Shown: positions 13,836-48,057 of the stretch, in pieces | Numbering within the stretch: position 1 is the first letter of the stretch | Layout of the letters: each line of letters starts with the position of its first letter | Source: an uncultured Erysipelotrichaceae bacterium | Lineage (GTDB): Bacteria; Bacillota_I; Bacilli_A; Erysipelotrichales; Erysipelotrichaceae | Direction: 5' to 3' | NCBI GenBank assembly: GCA_945877405.1 | Contig: CAMCSA010000011.1 | Coordinates: forward strand, 1 to 58,636 | DNA length: 58,636 bases | Position numbers and translations under genes: made by a program | The notes under the pieces: generated by a model | Seen by the model: the letters and a program-made list of their open reading frames with translations, nothing else | Databases searched by the model: none | Told to the model about the DNA's origin: nothing

Positions 13836-13975
13836 AAACTGTGCATGCCAGAGGTGTGTGTACCAATTAGGAAAATTTACATTTCACAAAGATAAAAGAA
13901 CCGTGAAAATCACATATTTTTTCAGCTGATTTATTAAAATCATTGTATGATATTTACAGGAGATGAAAAACAAAA

Positions 13976-15274
13976 ATGAAAGTCATTAACTATGAAGTAA
14001 AAAATCCGTTAGGAATCCATGCAAGACCTGCAGCTATTCTTGCGCAGGCATGCACAAATTTCAAGGCAGCCGTTACAATCGAATGTAATGGGGAATCTGC
14101 ATCTGGTAATAACGTTCTGCAGATTCTGGCATTACATGCTGCTAAGGGATCCACACTGAAGATCACAATCGATGGTGAAGATGCTGATGCATGTGCTGAT
14201 AAGATTCTGGAAGCACTGAATGAAATCCAGCCAAAAGACAAGGCTACTCAGGTTCTCAAGATCGCATTCTTTGGTACAAAGGAATACGACAGACTGTTCT
14301 TCTCTGAACTGTCCAAGGACAAGGGTGAAGGCACGTACAATGTTGATATCGAATACTTCAACAGCCGTCTGACAATTGAATCTGTTGGTCTGTCTAAGGG
14401 ATTTGATGGTGTATGTATCTTCGTTAACGATGAAGCACCAAGACCTGTTATCGAAAAGCTGGCTGAAAACGGCATCAAGCTGATTCTGCTCCGTTGCGCC
14501 GGTTTCAACAATGTTGATCTGGATGCATGTAAGGAACATGGTATTACAGTTCTGCGTGTACCTGCATATTCTCCATATGCAGTTGCTGAACATGCAATGG
14601 CTATTATCCAGGATGCAAACCGCCGTATCACAAAGGGTGTCAACAAGGTTAAGGACAACAACTTCTCCCTGAACGGTCTGCTCGGTGTTGACCTGCACAA
14701 CAAGGTTGCAGGTATCATGGGTACAGGACGTATTGGTCAAATCATGGCAAAGATCTGCAAGGGCTATGGTATGACAGTACTTGGTTGGGATGCTTATCCG
14801 AACAAGGCTCTGGAAGATCAGGGACTGCTGACATATGTTACAAAGGAAGAACTGCTCAGAAAGTCTGATCTGATTTCTCTGCATGCTCCATTAATCATGG
14901 GTGAAGGCGGAACATACCACCTGATCGATGATAAGGAAATCGAAATGATGAAGAATGGTGTCATGCTTGTCAACACATCCCGTGGTGGACTTGTTAATGT
15001 TGATGCTCTGATCCGAGGTCTGCGTGCTAACAAGTTCCATGCAGTAGCACTGGACGTATATGAAGGTGAAGACAGCAATGTTTACACAGACCATTCCGAT
15101 GATATGATGCAGAATTCCGTAGCAGCAAGACTTGTTACATTCCCTAACCTGATTCTGACATCTCATCAGGCATTCTTCACACGTGAAGCTCTGCAGGCAA
15201 TCGCAGCAGTCACAATGGAAAATGCAAGAAACTTCAATGAAGGACTTCCTTACGGACCAGCTGAAGTAAAGTAA
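13976..15274 (+). CDS. HPr phosphocarrier domain fused to D-lactate dehydrogenase
   Basis: The 432-residue protein is a two-domain fusion. Residues 1-84 align without gaps to HPr: NPLGIHARPAA places the phosphorylatable His at position 15 and Arg at 17. The Ser46 regulatory site is Asn46 (SGNNVLQILAL). After a short linker, residues 93-432 match LdhA-type D-lactate dehydrogenase: CIFVNDEAPRPV, LRCAGFNNVDLDA, NAD-binding GTGRIG (249-254) and Asp272. Catalytic Arg336, Glu363 and His397 are all present. HPr carries phosphate from PEP via Enzyme I; D-LDH reduces pyruvate. The join suggests PTS phosphorylation could control fermentation. AGGAG lies 13 bases before the ATG. A terminator follows, so it is monocistronic. 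Confidence 0.92.
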   Translation: MKVINYEVKNPLGIHARPAAILAQACTNFKAAVTIECNGESASGNNVLQILALHAAKGSTLKITIDGEDADACADKILEALNEIQPKDKATQVLKIAFFGTKEYDRLFFSELSKDKGEGTYNVDIEYFNSRLTIESVGLSKGFDGVCIFVNDEAPRPVIEKLAENGIKLILLRCAGFNNVDLDACKEHGITVLRVPAYSPYAVAEHAMAIIQDANRRITKGVNKVKDNNFSLNGLLGVDLHNKVAGIMGTGRIGQIMAKICKGYGMTVLGWDAYPNKALEDQGLLTYVTKEELLRKSDLISLHAPLIMGEGGTYHLIDDKEIEMMKNGVMLVNTSRGGLVNVDALIRGLRANKFHAVALDVYEGEDSNVYTDHSDDMMQNSVAARLVTFPNLILTSHQAFFTREALQAIAAVTMENARNFNEGLPYGPAEVK

Positions 15275-15306
15275 TGATTCATTCACAGAAAACAATAGGT
15301 TAACGC

Positions 15307-15336
15307 AAAAGGCACCGGTAGATCCGATGCCTTTTT
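15307..15336 (+). terminator. Terminator after the HPr-LDH fusion
   Basis: AAAGGCA-C-CGG pairs with CCG-A-TGCCTTT around the loop TAGAT, then a T run. One internal mismatch. Confidence 0.75.
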
Positions 15337-15489
15337 CAGGATTTAAAGAAGGATGTTTAGCACATTCTTCAAGCTGATCTATAAACAGACGAAAATTGCA
15401 ATATTTTACAGTTTTCATCTGTATGAACAGTCCACTGGTATATGTAACTGTCAGGTTGATCTTATTTGATCACTCAATACCACTCATCT

Positions 15490-41338: not shown

Positions 41339-41412
41339 TGGAGCGAGTGAGCGGAATCGAACCGCCGTATCCACCTTGGCAAGGTGGTGTTCTACCGTTG
41401 AACTACACTCGC
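41339..41412 (-). tRNA. tRNA-Gly (anticodon GCC), copy 1
   Basis: Acceptor GCGAGTG/CACTCGC, anticodon loop TTGCCAA giving GCC, T loop TTCGATT, discriminator T, and CCA encoded at 41341-41339. It is the last gene of the tRNA-Ser, tRNA-Asp, tRNA-Gly transcript. Confidence 0.96.
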
Positions 41413-41417
41413 AATAA

Positions 41418-41494
41418 TGGCGGTTCTGACGAGATTCGAACTCGCGATCTTCTCCGTGACAGGGAGACGAGATAAACCACTACTCCACAGAACC
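41418..41494 (-). tRNA. tRNA-Asp (anticodon GTC), copy 1
   Basis: Acceptor GGTTCTG/CAGAACC, anticodon loop CTGTCAC giving GTC, T loop TTCGAAT, discriminator G, CCA encoded. It lies 5 bases upstream of tRNA-Gly on the minus strand. Confidence 0.96.
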
Positions 41495-41499
41495 ATAAA

Positions 41500-41590
41500 T
41501 GGCGAGGAAAGAGGGATTTGAACCCTCGCGCCGGTTTCCCGACCTATGCCCTTAGCAGGGGCACCTCTTCGGCCTCTTGAGTATTTCCTC
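41500..41590 (-). tRNA. tRNA-Ser (anticodon GCT)
   Basis: A 91-base class II tRNA: acceptor GAGGAAA/TTTCCTC, anticodon loop CTGCTAA giving GCT, a long variable arm as expected for serine, discriminator G, and CCA encoded. It leads the three-tRNA operon. Confidence 0.95.
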
Positions 41591-41635
41591 AACAGTCTGC
41601 CAAACGCATTTTTATTTCGCTGTTAGCACTTGGAT

Positions 41636-41664
41636 AATATACCATGGCTTTTTCCTCTTGGCAA
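41636..41664 (-). promoter_or_regulatory. Promoter of the Ser-Asp-Gly tRNA operon
   Basis: On the minus strand TTGCCA (41664-41659) and TATATT (41641-41636) are 17 bp apart. The boxes sit in CCATGGTATATTAT, which also occurs at the second tRNA promoter. Confidence 0.7.
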
Positions 41665-41813
41665 GAGGGAAAAATACGAAATCATTTTGGACACTTGATG
41701 ACAACATTGTTTTTAGGCTGTTTATTCATCATTTTTCCGATCTTCAGATTTTCTTCTCTGATCTTCTTTTTCGCCATGACTTGACATAATCATGGAATGA
41801 TGGAGAAATATAG

Positions 41814-41835
41814 AAAAACTCACTTTTCAGTGAGC
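41814..41835 (-). terminator. Terminator of the Asp-Gly tRNA operon
   Basis: The same tetraloop hairpin and T run as the copy 504 bp to the left. Confidence 0.88.
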
Positions 41836-41842
41836 TTTACAA

Positions 41843-41916
41843 TGGAGCGAGTGAGCGGAATCGAACCGCCGTATCCACCTTGGCAAGGTGGTGTTCTACC
41901 GTTGAACTACACTCGC
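41843..41916 (-). tRNA. tRNA-Gly (anticodon GCC), copy 2
   Basis: Identical to the first tRNA-Gly, including the encoded CCA. Confidence 0.96.
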
Positions 41917-41921
41917 AATAA

Positions 41922-41998
41922 TGGCGGTTCTGACGAGATTCGAACTCGCGATCTTCTCCGTGACAGGGAGACGAGATAAACCACTACTCCACAGAACC
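41922..41998 (-). tRNA. tRNA-Asp (anticodon GTC), copy 2
   Basis: Identical to the first tRNA-Asp, including the encoded CCA. It is the first gene of a two-tRNA transcript. Confidence 0.96.
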
Positions 41999-44785: not shown

Positions 44786-45545
44786 AGAAACAAAGCTGCT
44801 GGAGGATGCACTGCATCAACGACAGATCGAAAAAAGAGAATATGGATGTGAAGAAGTGACGATCGGATTCAAAGCAGGTGGAAAAGGAGACGAAATTGTC
44901 GACTATATGACAATGGATGCTTCAGACCAGTTCCGCTGTTATGAGATTAAAGTGACATTATCTGATCTGAAATCAGACAATGCTCTGTCATTTTACGGGG
45001 ATTACAATTATCTTGTTGTTTCTGACAGTCTTTATCTGCGCAACCCTGTGTGGGAAAACCATATTCCTCCTTATGCCGGTATACTATGCGGGAAAGATCT
45101 GCGTGTCATCCGTCAGGCAAAACTGAAACGGATTGATGAACAGACGAGACAGATGCTGAAAAGTTCTCTGTTGCGTTCTGTCTGCTGGAAATATGAAAAT
45201 CACCGTAATGCGCAGATCCTGAATGATACGCGTGCTCTAAAACGGCAGATGGAACAGATGAAACAGGAATATCAGAATAGAATTGAAGAACTGGATCAGA
45301 TGGAATGGACGTGCCATGATTTTGAATACTATTATGGAGCCAATCATCAGATTACTGATTTTCATCTGGAAAAGGAAGCCATGGTACAAAGAAAGCAGTA
45401 TGCTTTGCGGAAAGAAGGCAGAATGAGCTGGACGAGTGAAAATGGTGAGCTGGAATGCCCGGTCTGTGGTACTCATCAGAATCAGGAAACACCATACTGT
45501 CCATACTGTGGAACGGATCTGAGAAAAATGAAAGAACATGAGTGA
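44772..45545 (+). CDS. MmcB-like PD-(D/E)XK protein with C-terminal zinc ribbon
   Basis: The 257-residue protein has a nuclease-like core: EIVDYMTMD (Asp44), then CYEIKVTLSDLKSDN with Glu58-x-Lys60, and FYGDYNYLVVSD. This is the layout of MmcB/PD-(D/E)XK restriction-type folds. A helical middle (about 120-190) follows, then a zinc ribbon with Cys229/232 and Cys243/246 (CPVCG...CPYCG). It may bind or cut nucleic acid; no substrate is known. The start at 44772 has AAAGGAGG six bases upstream; the ATG at 44766 is too close to it. It overlaps the next gene by 8 bases. Confidence 0.75.
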   Translation: MSKTEETKLLEDALHQRQIEKREYGCEEVTIGFKAGGKGDEIVDYMTMDASDQFRCYEIKVTLSDLKSDNALSFYGDYNYLVVSDSLYLRNPVWENHIPPYAGILCGKDLRVIRQAKLKRIDEQTRQMLKSSLLRSVCWKYENHRNAQILNDTRALKRQMEQMKQEYQNRIEELDQMEWTCHDFEYYYGANHQITDFHLEKEAMVQRKQYALRKEGRMSWTSENGELECPVCGTHQNQETPYCPYCGTDLRKMKEHE

Positions 45546-48057
45546 AATGAAGAATGTAAAACATATCTGTACAGGATTGCTTGCCCATGTTGATGCGGGC
45601 AAGACCACCTGTGTAGAAGCAATGCTGCTGAACAGCGGCACAATCCGCAAGGCTGGACGGGTCGATCATGGCGATACGATCCTTGACTATGATGAACAGG
45701 AAAGAAGTCATGGCATTACGATTTATGCCAAAGAAGCCCACATGAAATGGATGGATGCAGAGATTGATCTGATTGATACACCAGGCCATGTGGATTTTTC
45801 TGCGGAAATGGAAAGAAGTCTGTCTGTATTGGATGTGGCAGTATTGCTGATCAATGGACAGGATGGAGTACAGGCTCATACGCATACGATCTGGAAATGC
45901 CTTTCCCATTACAATGTACCATGTATCGTATTTGTCAATAAAATGGATATCTCATTTCATACACAGCAGGAACTGCTGGAAGATCTGCATACGCATTGCT
46001 CGGATATGTGTGTGCAGTGGGATGAAAACAGAGACGATACACTTGCGTTAGCAAATGATGAAATACTGGAGGCAGTATCGCAGACAGGAGTCATACCAGA
46101 ACAGCTGCTGCAGCAGGCATTCATGAAACGGCAGTTTTTCCCGGTTCTTTTCGGTAGTGCCTTAAAGAATCAGGGCGTAGATACCCTGATGAATCTGATG
46201 TGTCAGCTTGTTCCACAAAGAGAATATCCGGAAACATTTGGGGCAAAGGTATTCCGTGTTTCATTGGATCCACAGGGCAATCGATTGACGCACATGAGAA
46301 TTACAGGTGGCATTCTACGTGCCAGGGATCGATTCAATGAAGAGGACAAGGCAGATCAGATCAGACGATACAATGGCGTCAAATATGATCTTCTGATGGA
46401 AGCTGGTGGCGGAGAAGTCGTATGTGTTAAAGGGATATCTTCCATGGAACCAGGGGCTGGACTTGGATTTGAAAAGGACAGCAGTTCATCCTTACTCAAT
46501 GCCAGCATGACCTATCAGCTGGAACTGCCTGAAGGGGCAAGCCCGCTTGTTCTGGCTGATACGTGTGCAACACTTGCCAGTGAAGATCCACGTCTTGAAA
46601 TCAGCACGGATGAAAGAACAGGAAGAATATCTGTCTGTATCATGGGTAAAATGCAGATGGAGGTACTGCAGAAAAAGATCTATGAATCTTCTGGTATTAT
46701 GGTAGGTTTTTCAACAGGAAAAATCGTCTATCAGGAAACGATCAGAGGACCGGTTGATGGTGCAGGCCATTTTGAACCGTTACGCCATTATGCAGAAGTG
46801 CATGTCAGGCTTGAACCATTACCATCCGGCAGTGGAATACAGGTCGTTAACGGAATCGGAACAGATTCTCTGTCCGCCGCATGGCAACGTTCCATTCTTT
46901 CTGCCTTAAGCAGGAAAAGGCATCGTGGTGTACTGACTGGTTCATTCCTTACCGATGTCAGAATCATTCTGACAGCTGGCAAAGGACATATCAAACATAC
47001 AATGGGTGGTGACTTCAGACAGGCTGCCGGCAGGGCTGTGCGCCAGGCATTGATGAAAGCGGAATCCATTCTGCTGGAACCATATGAATCCTTTGAACTG
47101 ACTGTACCATCAGAAAGCCTTTCACGAGCACTGTTTGATCTTGAAAACAGGGAGTGCAGTGTTGAAGTGAAAGAAAATGAAAACGGCACCATGTGTATTC
47201 AAGGAGAAGGACCTGTCAGAACATTACAGAACTACAATGGTGAAGTGACGGTCTATACAAAGGGAAAAGGCATCTTCTTAAGTGAAACAGCCGGATTCAG
47301 ACCATGCAAAGAAGCGGATCGGATCATTGCGGAAATCGGATATGATCCGGAAATGGATCTGCATCATCCTGCGGATTCTGTCTTCTGTGCAAATGGCAAC
47401 GGCTACAATGTCAGATGGGATGAAGCAGATGAGCATATGCACATCCAATTGAAAAATGGTGAGGTGCCTTCTTCTGCGATGCGCTCGACACGGTATAAGG
47501 TATCTGAGGGAGATCTTGGATACATCATGGAAATGACAGCAGGCAGAAATCGCAATCCGGATAAAGAAGCAGAAGAAAGAATCCGGAAGGAAAAAGAGAA
47601 GAAACGGGAAGAAATGGCTGAGATGTCACGCGTCAGAGCTTCTGTGAATCTGCCTGATATGATGGTTGTGGATGGATACAATATGGTCTATGCCTGGGAT
47701 GAACTCAAGTCTTTGGCTCAGGAAGATCTGTATCTTGCGCGTGAAAAACTGATTACGGCCTTATATAACTGGCAGGCATATTATGGTCATCCGATTACCG
47801 TTGTCTTTGATGGATATCGTGTTGCCAATAACACGGGAACTACCCTGAAAAAACAGGATCTGACGATTGTCTACACAAAAACCGGGGAAACTGCAGATAC
47901 ATGGATTGAAAGGTTTTCCTACCAGAATCAGAACAGATACCGAATCACTTACGTATCATCTGATGCCCTGATTCAGAATGCCGTACTTTCCAGAAATGGT
48001 TTACGCATGAGTGCCAATGCGTTATATCAGAAACTGAAAGAATTTTCCATTTTATGA
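45538..48057 (+). CDS. Tet(M)-like ribosomal GTPase fused to a Rae1/YacP NYN ribonuclease
   Basis: The 839-residue protein has an EF-G/Tet(M)-type translational GTPase (about 1-665): LAHVDAGKTT (15-24), RSHGITIYA, DTPGHVDF with His84, NKMD (134-137), and a domain IV with HTMGGDFRQAAGRAV. A very charged helix (about 669-703) links it to an NYN domain (704-839). That domain closely follows B. subtilis Rae1: VVDGYNMVYAW (Asp712), VVFDGY (Asp758), TKTGETAD (Glu784, Asp787) and SSDALIQNAV (Asp809). Rae1 cuts mRNA in the ribosomal A site; Tet(M) clears that site. The start overlaps the upstream stop (ATGAGTGA). Resistance function is unproven. Confidence 0.9.
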   Translation: MSEMKNVKHICTGLLAHVDAGKTTCVEAMLLNSGTIRKAGRVDHGDTILDYDEQERSHGITIYAKEAHMKWMDAEIDLIDTPGHVDFSAEMERSLSVLDVAVLLINGQDGVQAHTHTIWKCLSHYNVPCIVFVNKMDISFHTQQELLEDLHTHCSDMCVQWDENRDDTLALANDEILEAVSQTGVIPEQLLQQAFMKRQFFPVLFGSALKNQGVDTLMNLMCQLVPQREYPETFGAKVFRVSLDPQGNRLTHMRITGGILRARDRFNEEDKADQIRRYNGVKYDLLMEAGGGEVVCVKGISSMEPGAGLGFEKDSSSSLLNASMTYQLELPEGASPLVLADTCATLASEDPRLEISTDERTGRISVCIMGKMQMEVLQKKIYESSGIMVGFSTGKIVYQETIRGPVDGAGHFEPLRHYAEVHVRLEPLPSGSGIQVVNGIGTDSLSAAWQRSILSALSRKRHRGVLTGSFLTDVRIILTAGKGHIKHTMGGDFRQAAGRAVRQALMKAESILLEPYESFELTVPSESLSRALFDLENRECSVEVKENENGTMCIQGEGPVRTLQNYNGEVTVYTKGKGIFLSETAGFRPCKEADRIIAEIGYDPEMDLHHPADSVFCANGNGYNVRWDEADEHMHIQLKNGEVPSSAMRSTRYKVSEGDLGYIMEMTAGRNRNPDKEAEERIRKEKEKKREEMAEMSRVRASVNLPDMMVVDGYNMVYAWDELKSLAQEDLYLAREKLITALYNWQAYYGHPITVVFDGYRVANNTGTTLKKQDLTIVYTKTGETADTWIERFSYQNQNRYRITYVSSDALIQNAVLSRNGLRMSANALYQKLKEFSIL

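Follow-up and report, generated by a model that had tools for sequence, protein, structure and literature searches.

The window analysed here is a 58,636-nucleotide stretch from an uncultured Erysipelotrichaceae bacterium (GenBank assembly GCA_945877405.1, contig CAMCSA010000011.1, positions 1–58,636 of the forward strand). On its plus strand lies a gene in which HPr, the relay protein of sugar uptake by the phosphotransferase system (PTS), is fused to a D-lactate dehydrogenase (D-LDH). The data point to this fusion as the main fermentative lactate dehydrogenase (LDH) of this bacterium, highly expressed and taking the place of the usual L-lactate dehydrogenase (L-LDH). We put at about even the chances that the activity or placement of this D-LDH depends on whether its HPr domain is phosphorylated, outside the control of HPr kinase (HprK). 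Because a relay protein of sugar uptake is joined to a stand-in for the usual LDH, sugar uptake may switch lactate production directly.

The fusion is a single unbroken frame of 432 amino acids, from the ATG at 13976 to a stop codon ending at 15274. Its parts are as follows:

13976–15274, plus strand: HPr–D-LDH fusion gene, 432 amino acids (open reading frame, Pfam domains, orthologues in 42 of 196 genomes of the order)
13976–14227, plus strand: HPr domain, residues 1–84 (PF00381 at residues 5–82, 76.9 bits)
14018–14020, plus strand: codon for His15, read from the sequence
14024–14026, plus strand: codon for Arg17, read from the sequence
14111–14113, plus strand: codon for Asn46, read from the sequence
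14228–14254, plus strand: variable linker, residues 85–93 (low model confidence at about residues 81–90; pooled dN/dS 0.209, above that of the HPr and LDH parts)
14255–15271, plus strand: D-LDH part, residues 94–432 (PF00389 and PF02826; best solved relatives are D-LDHs)

An initial annotation, made from the letters of the window, had proposed HPr fused to D-LDH, and the domain searches bore this out. All three Pfam domains lie far above their cut-offs: PTS-HPr (cut-off 23 bits), 2-Hacid_dh at residues 111–423 (102.4 bits, cut-off 24.6) and 2-Hacid_dh_C at residues 209–399 (147.4 bits, cut-off 25.1). The HPr model TIGR01003 also exceeds its cut-off (71 against 47.9 bits). The AlphaFold2 model of the fusion has a mean pLDDT of 85 and a pTM of 0.70, with a dip at the linker. 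All the places in a comparison of this model with the PDB went to matches of the dehydrogenase part, so that the HPr-fold assignment rests on sequence and model confidence.

The dehydrogenase half keeps the NAD-binding and catalytic residues of a D-LDH, just as the initial annotation had claimed: the NAD motif GTGRIG at 249–254, D272 for NAD and, judged by spacing, the catalytic set R336, E365 and H397, which we take to be Arg235, Glu264 and His296 of the Lactobacillus bulgaricus enzyme. In the gap-free rows of an alignment of 47 loci plus the window (L083, cut by a contig end, dropped; L109 partial), R336 is conserved in 47 of 47, E365 in 45 of 47 and H397 in 46 of 46. The best solved relatives of residues 94–432, at 42–46% identity, are the D-LDHs of E. 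coli (3wx0/5z1z), Fusobacterium nucleatum (5z21), Salmonella and Pseudomonas. The fusion shares the fold, catalytic residues and NAD motif of the LdhA-type fermentative enzymes among them, and differs from that type in its N-terminal HPr, in inserts at 115–119 and 308–310, and in 20 positions conserved in fusions yet absent in six lone D-LDHs compared. Those six have neither insert, and the second insert is missing from 6 of 46 fusions. Judged by the nearest solved relatives and by the replacement of L-LDH described below, the fusion probably reduces pyruvate to D-lactate with NADH (EC 1.1.1.28).

L-LDH in the carriers, and the spread of the fusion

A family search with PF02866 found no L-LDH/malate dehydrogenase family protein in the window's own genome, which is 95.6% complete. 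Apart from the fusion, only two proteins of this genome are related to the LDH half, a phosphoglycerate dehydrogenase encoded next to serC and a weakly matching dehydrogenase of 318 amino acids, and the fusion is the genome's only recognisable NAD-lactate dehydrogenase.

The same tendency was seen among relatives, in a comparison of 61 genomes. A strong match to the L-LDH family (E <= 1e-34, a line set after the scores were seen, with a family model that takes in malate dehydrogenases too) was found in 6 of 42 carriers of the fusion vs. 16 of 19 non-carriers (p = 2.4e-7), and a match of any strength in 13 of 42 vs. 16 of 19 (p = 2.0e-4). Within the genus, the strong match occurred in none of 16 carriers and in 13 of 16 non-carriers, and any match in 3 of 16 vs. 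13 of 16 (p = 0.001). The 19 non-carriers comprised 16 of the 17 listed for the same genus (G176, 80% complete, was excluded) and three of the same family; unlisted non-carriers were left aside, as were six genomes with a lone D-LDH (G141, G195, G104, G157, G160 and G180). Furthermore, a tree of HprK provided seven independent pairs, on supported branches, with the fusion in one member only; L-LDH changed in the opposite sense in an average of 6.2 of them and never in the same sense (p about 0.03), a test that covers 40 of the 61 genomes, the strong L-LDH line and one marker gene.

Of 42 window genes chosen manually from the list of open reading frames, the fusion also ranks first in codon adaptation, with 0.567 against a median of 0.286 when judged by tuf and gap; the value for ptsH is 0.541. 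Taken together, the lack of an L-LDH in the window's genome, its replacement in relatives and the codon bias point to the fusion as the main fermentative LDH. This replacement, which lay beyond the reach of the initial annotation, is the strongest lead of the present work.

Matches with E <= 1e-80 were found in 48 of the 196 genomes of the order. They include 42 full-length fusions (E <= 8.3e-185, at least 65% identity) and six lone D-LDHs, which lie across a sharp gap at E 1.2e-92 and weaker and match from about residue 90. The carriers span two families. An assembly artefact or chance juxtaposition, the danger named in the initial annotation, was rejected because so many genomes have the whole architecture, including the one-contig genome G011. 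Samples drawn from the class (395 genomes) and from the phylum (392 genomes) contained the full fusion in the same 11 genomes, all belonging to the window's order. A collection of named genomes yielded at least 46 fusions of full or nearly full length, plus two fragments; the carriers among the matches listed belong to Erysipelotrichaceae, Coprobacillaceae (Faecalibacillus faecis, Eggerthia catenaformis and Kandleria vitulina), Lachnospiraceae, Selenomonadaceae (Selenomonas bovis) and Oscillospiraceae, along with Eubacterium pyruvativorans, and many of those listed come from rumen or gut. Presumably, E. catenaformis and K. vitulina make D(-)-lactate; a match to the L-LDH family was found once in K. 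vitulina and not in E. catenaformis.

In a tree of the LDH part, a branch with 100% support separates 37 fusions and the window's own from 20 lone D-LDHs. On the fusion side, Lachnospiraceae, Selenomonadaceae and Erysipelotrichales are intermixed, and the rows nearest to the window's fusion are rumen Lachnospiraceae. The HPr parts of fusions likewise group together (support 92, from few columns). These trees are most simply read as a single fusion event with later transfers from lineage to lineage.

The HPr domain and its proposed control of the dehydrogenase

The initial annotation held that the HPr domain could still accept phosphate from enzyme I, and the sequence data support this claim. 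All 70 distinct fusions have His15 and Arg17, and 68 of them have Pro18. Residues taken to face enzyme I are less variable than the others across these fusions (0.76 vs. 1.66 bits, permutation p = 0.0001), and with residues 13–18 excluded p is still 0.0016. Enzyme I itself was found in 40 of the 42 carriers of the order, and the HPr part is under purifying selection, with a pooled dN/dS of 0.151 from 62 pairs that are mutually non-independent and include some genomes twice. In one fusion alignment, the row for L010 is short of its first two residues. All this suggests that the HPr domain is phosphorylatable.

The loss of Ser46, the residue on which HprK acts, was confirmed as a general trait of the family. 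Asn occupies position 46 in 60 of the 70 fusions, including that of the window, and Asp in 9; as a universal rule the loss was rejected, since one fusion (L065, of Selenomonadaceae) keeps Ser. HprK was found in 42 of 42 carriers, and its target site is gone from 69 of the 70 fusions, as the initial annotation had supposed for the window's own. Ser46 is a defining trait of the housekeeping HPr of Firmicutes, not of the wider HPr family. The fused domain thus appears to keep the enzyme I site and to drop the kinase site. The nine fusions with Asp46 are L009, L010, L064, L066–L069, L076 and L080; Asp is the laboratory mimic of phosphoserine.

The comparison with Crh, drawn in the initial annotation, proved apt, because among 20 further HPrs sampled from the order, of which 19 come from carriers and one from a non-carrier, 8 combine Tyr15 with a retained Ser46, and K. 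vitulina has both this kind and the fusion type with His15 and no Ser46. The latter combination is not unique to the fusion, as 9 of the 20 further HPrs have Lys or Asn at position 46. A housekeeping HPr with His15, Arg17 and Ser46 was found in 20 of 20 sampled carrier genomes. Since the housekeeping HPr is full, many of the further HPrs have Tyr15 or Lys/Asn46 and the fusion lacks the kinase site, the carrier genomes divide HPr functions among several proteins. L210–L222, which include K. vitulina, have up to four HPr domains per genome: a full HPr, a Crh-like Tyr15/Ser46 protein, a His15/Lys46 protein and the LDH fusion.

We propose that enzyme I phosphorylates the fused HPr at His15 and that PTS permeases take the phosphate off, so that the ratio of phosphoenolpyruvate (PEP) to pyruvate and the inflow of sugar would set its phosphorylation. 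Under fast sugar inflow, PEP would be drawn down, pyruvate would rise and the HPr domains would become dephosphorylated; the dephosphorylated fusion would have a more active LDH, clearing pyruvate and NADH. HprK should leave the Asn46 fusion alone, and therefore the signal would be PTS flux alone. Fructose-1,6-bisphosphate regulates the L-LDH of many Firmicutes, and the fused HPr would do for the D-LDH what this sugar phosphate does for the L-LDH. We infer that lactate is the product, that enzyme I phosphorylates the domain, that this affects the LDH, and in which direction. More tentatively, and with somewhat less confidence than an even chance, we suggest an enzyme that evolved once and spread horizontally, where fructose-1,6-bisphosphate has given way to PTS phosphorylation as the flux signal for lactate formation; gut and rumen bacteria would have swapped their L-LDH for an HPr-fused D-LDH that reads the PEP/pyruvate ratio via His15 and is insulated from HprK.

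The chief rival of control by phosphorylation is docking to enzyme I. The HPr domain would tether the LDH to enzyme I or to PTS permeases, pyruvate released by enzyme I would be reduced on the spot, and His15 would serve for binding, with catalysis unaffected by phosphorylation. The conserved surface facing enzyme I and a linker that looks flexible (the pLDDT dip and the variable sequence) are in keeping with such tethering; docking alone would not need both His15 and Arg17 in every fusion, and we consider it rather unlikely. Alternatively, the HPr domain may be an extra phosphocarrier that hands phosphate to permeases, with the LDH as a passenger. The phosphotransfer residues are indeed intact, but a full HPr is already present in all sampled carriers, HPr is kept with the LDH in every lineage seen, and the fusion tracks the absence of L-LDH, which leaves this role improbable.

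Several results weigh against the fusion as a PTS-controlled main fermentative LDH. Some L-LDH/malate dehydrogenase family protein is retained in the 13 of 42 carriers of the order mentioned above, and among 27 named carriers, most of which lie beyond this order, 10 have a match to this family and 17 have none. Across 47 loci with flanks (46 fetched and the window), PTS genes are not recurrent next to the fusion. No clear CRE or Rex site was found upstream of the fusion genes, and none upstream of the window's own. The HPr part is weaker in codon bias than the LDH part (0.404 vs. 0.62) and evolves faster (pooled dN/dS 0.151 vs. 0.084). Finally, the NCBIfam models of D-LDH give scores below their cut-offs: vanH 201 bits (cut-off 540), PRK12480 189.4 bits (579) and PRK08605 174.5 bits (356).

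The faster evolution and weaker codon bias of the HPr part would fit a scaffold or relic, i.e., a domain that is no longer phosphorylated and only stabilises or assembles the LDH, and the fusion-specific inserts in the LDH part suggest adaptation to a partner. Still, the active-site residues never vary across the 70 fusions while other positions do, and Arg17 is kept in only one of the eight Tyr15 HPrs, which have no phosphorylatable histidine. The probability of a relic is therefore small. The full HPr already present in these genomes and the unvarying active-site residues make both this explanation and the extra phosphocarrier less likely than docking.

The NCBIfam scores speak for another alternative, that the substrate is a different 2-ketoacid, such as a branched-chain or aromatic ketoacid, and that the fusion serves amino acid metabolism, not fermentation. 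The superfamily has many substrates, and one carrier, E. pyruvativorans, lives on amino acids. We regard this as a slim chance, as the nearest solved proteins are fermentative D-LDHs and the fusion stands in for L-LDH and has a codon bias like that of glycolytic genes. On balance, we keep to control of a fermentative D-LDH through its HPr domain, and the interpretation given in the initial annotation is, as a whole, partly supported.

Genomic surroundings of the fusion gene

Two further elements flank the reading frame:

13958–13962, plus strand: AGGAG, a likely ribosome binding site 13 bases 5′ of the ATG, read from the sequence
15307–15336, plus strand: hairpin followed by a U-run, a likely transcription terminator (RNA fold of 15295–15345: −15.3 kcal/mol, z −2.93)

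The hairpin was not among the terminators of a consensus terminator scan. With AGGAG before the ATG and a stable hairpin plus U-run after the stop codon, the fusion gene looks like a one-gene unit. Its neighbours in the window are a metallophosphoesterase gene upstream and, on the opposite strand downstream, a gene for an AAA/DUF4143 protein. No neighbouring family is widely recurrent across the 47 loci, and an operon with PTS genes was rejected on this ground. Two families resembling FAD-oxidoreductases, named by eye from their sequences, recur at 8 and 7 of these loci, nearly all of them close relatives. CRE or Rex control was likewise rejected, as each site was found in 3 of 47 upstream regions vs. 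0.4 and 0.55 in shuffled sequences, which makes no case.

Elsewhere in the window, a DDE transposase gene (PF01609; 8882–10201, plus strand) lies 3.8 kb upstream of the fusion and may bear on the movement of the gene. A second fusion is encoded at 45538–48057 (plus strand), where a protein of 839 amino acids combines an EF-G-like GTPase (GTP_EFTU, EFG_IV and EFG_C) with a C-terminal YacP-like NYN nuclease domain at 709–835; the three EF-G-type domains are those that build ribosomal protection proteins of the Tet(M) type. At 41339–41998 (minus strand), there is a repeated tRNA cluster, Gly(gcc)-Asp(gtc)-Ser(gct) followed by Gly(gcc)-Asp(gtc) again.

Relation to known systems and meaning for the carriers

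With the HPr of Firmicutes (ptsH), the fusion shares the PF00381 fold, His15, Arg17, Pro18 and the enzyme-I-facing surface; it differs in being joined to an enzyme and in the exchange of Ser46 for Asn or Asp, the stretch KSIMGVMSL becoming NNVLQILAL. Like Crh of Bacillus and the Tyr15/Ser46 paralogues of the order, it is an HPr paralogue with one of the two phosphorylation sites, but the opposite one: Crh keeps Ser46 and has lost His15, and the fusion is thus not a Crh. PTS modules are known on other non-PTS proteins, such as the IIA domain of LacS, the PRD regulators and the HPr domain of DhaM, where PTS phosphorylation is built into another protein for control, as we propose here. Those are transporters, regulators and multi-domain phosphotransferases, whereas the fusion is a fermentation enzyme. 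As far as we found, an HPr on such an enzyme is new: no described HPr–LDH fusion was found in searches of an open-licence full-text library, a scope outside which most subscription papers lie, and domain databases may well list the architecture.

A precedent for direct control comes from E. coli, where, according to PMC8167557 citing Rodionova et al. 2017, HPr binds and regulates PykF and PfkB directly, with NagB and Adk also named among the metabolic enzymes it regulates. There the partners are separate proteins, whereas here HPr and the LDH form a single polypeptide. If our proposal holds, direct regulation of enzymes by HPr would extend to a hard-wired form, and the state of the PTS would be linked directly to a fermentation enzyme in a way testable with purified proteins.

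Lactate yield in gut and rumen communities bears on acidosis, on butyrate and propionate cross-feeding and on methane. K. vitulina, a rumen lactate producer, carries the fusion, and in low-methane sheep the D-LDH gene of Sharpea azabuensis, a candidate for the same fusion, is reported to be highly transcribed (PMC5069950). Should the fused HPr gate the enzyme, lactate output would come under post-translational control by sugar uptake in a single step.
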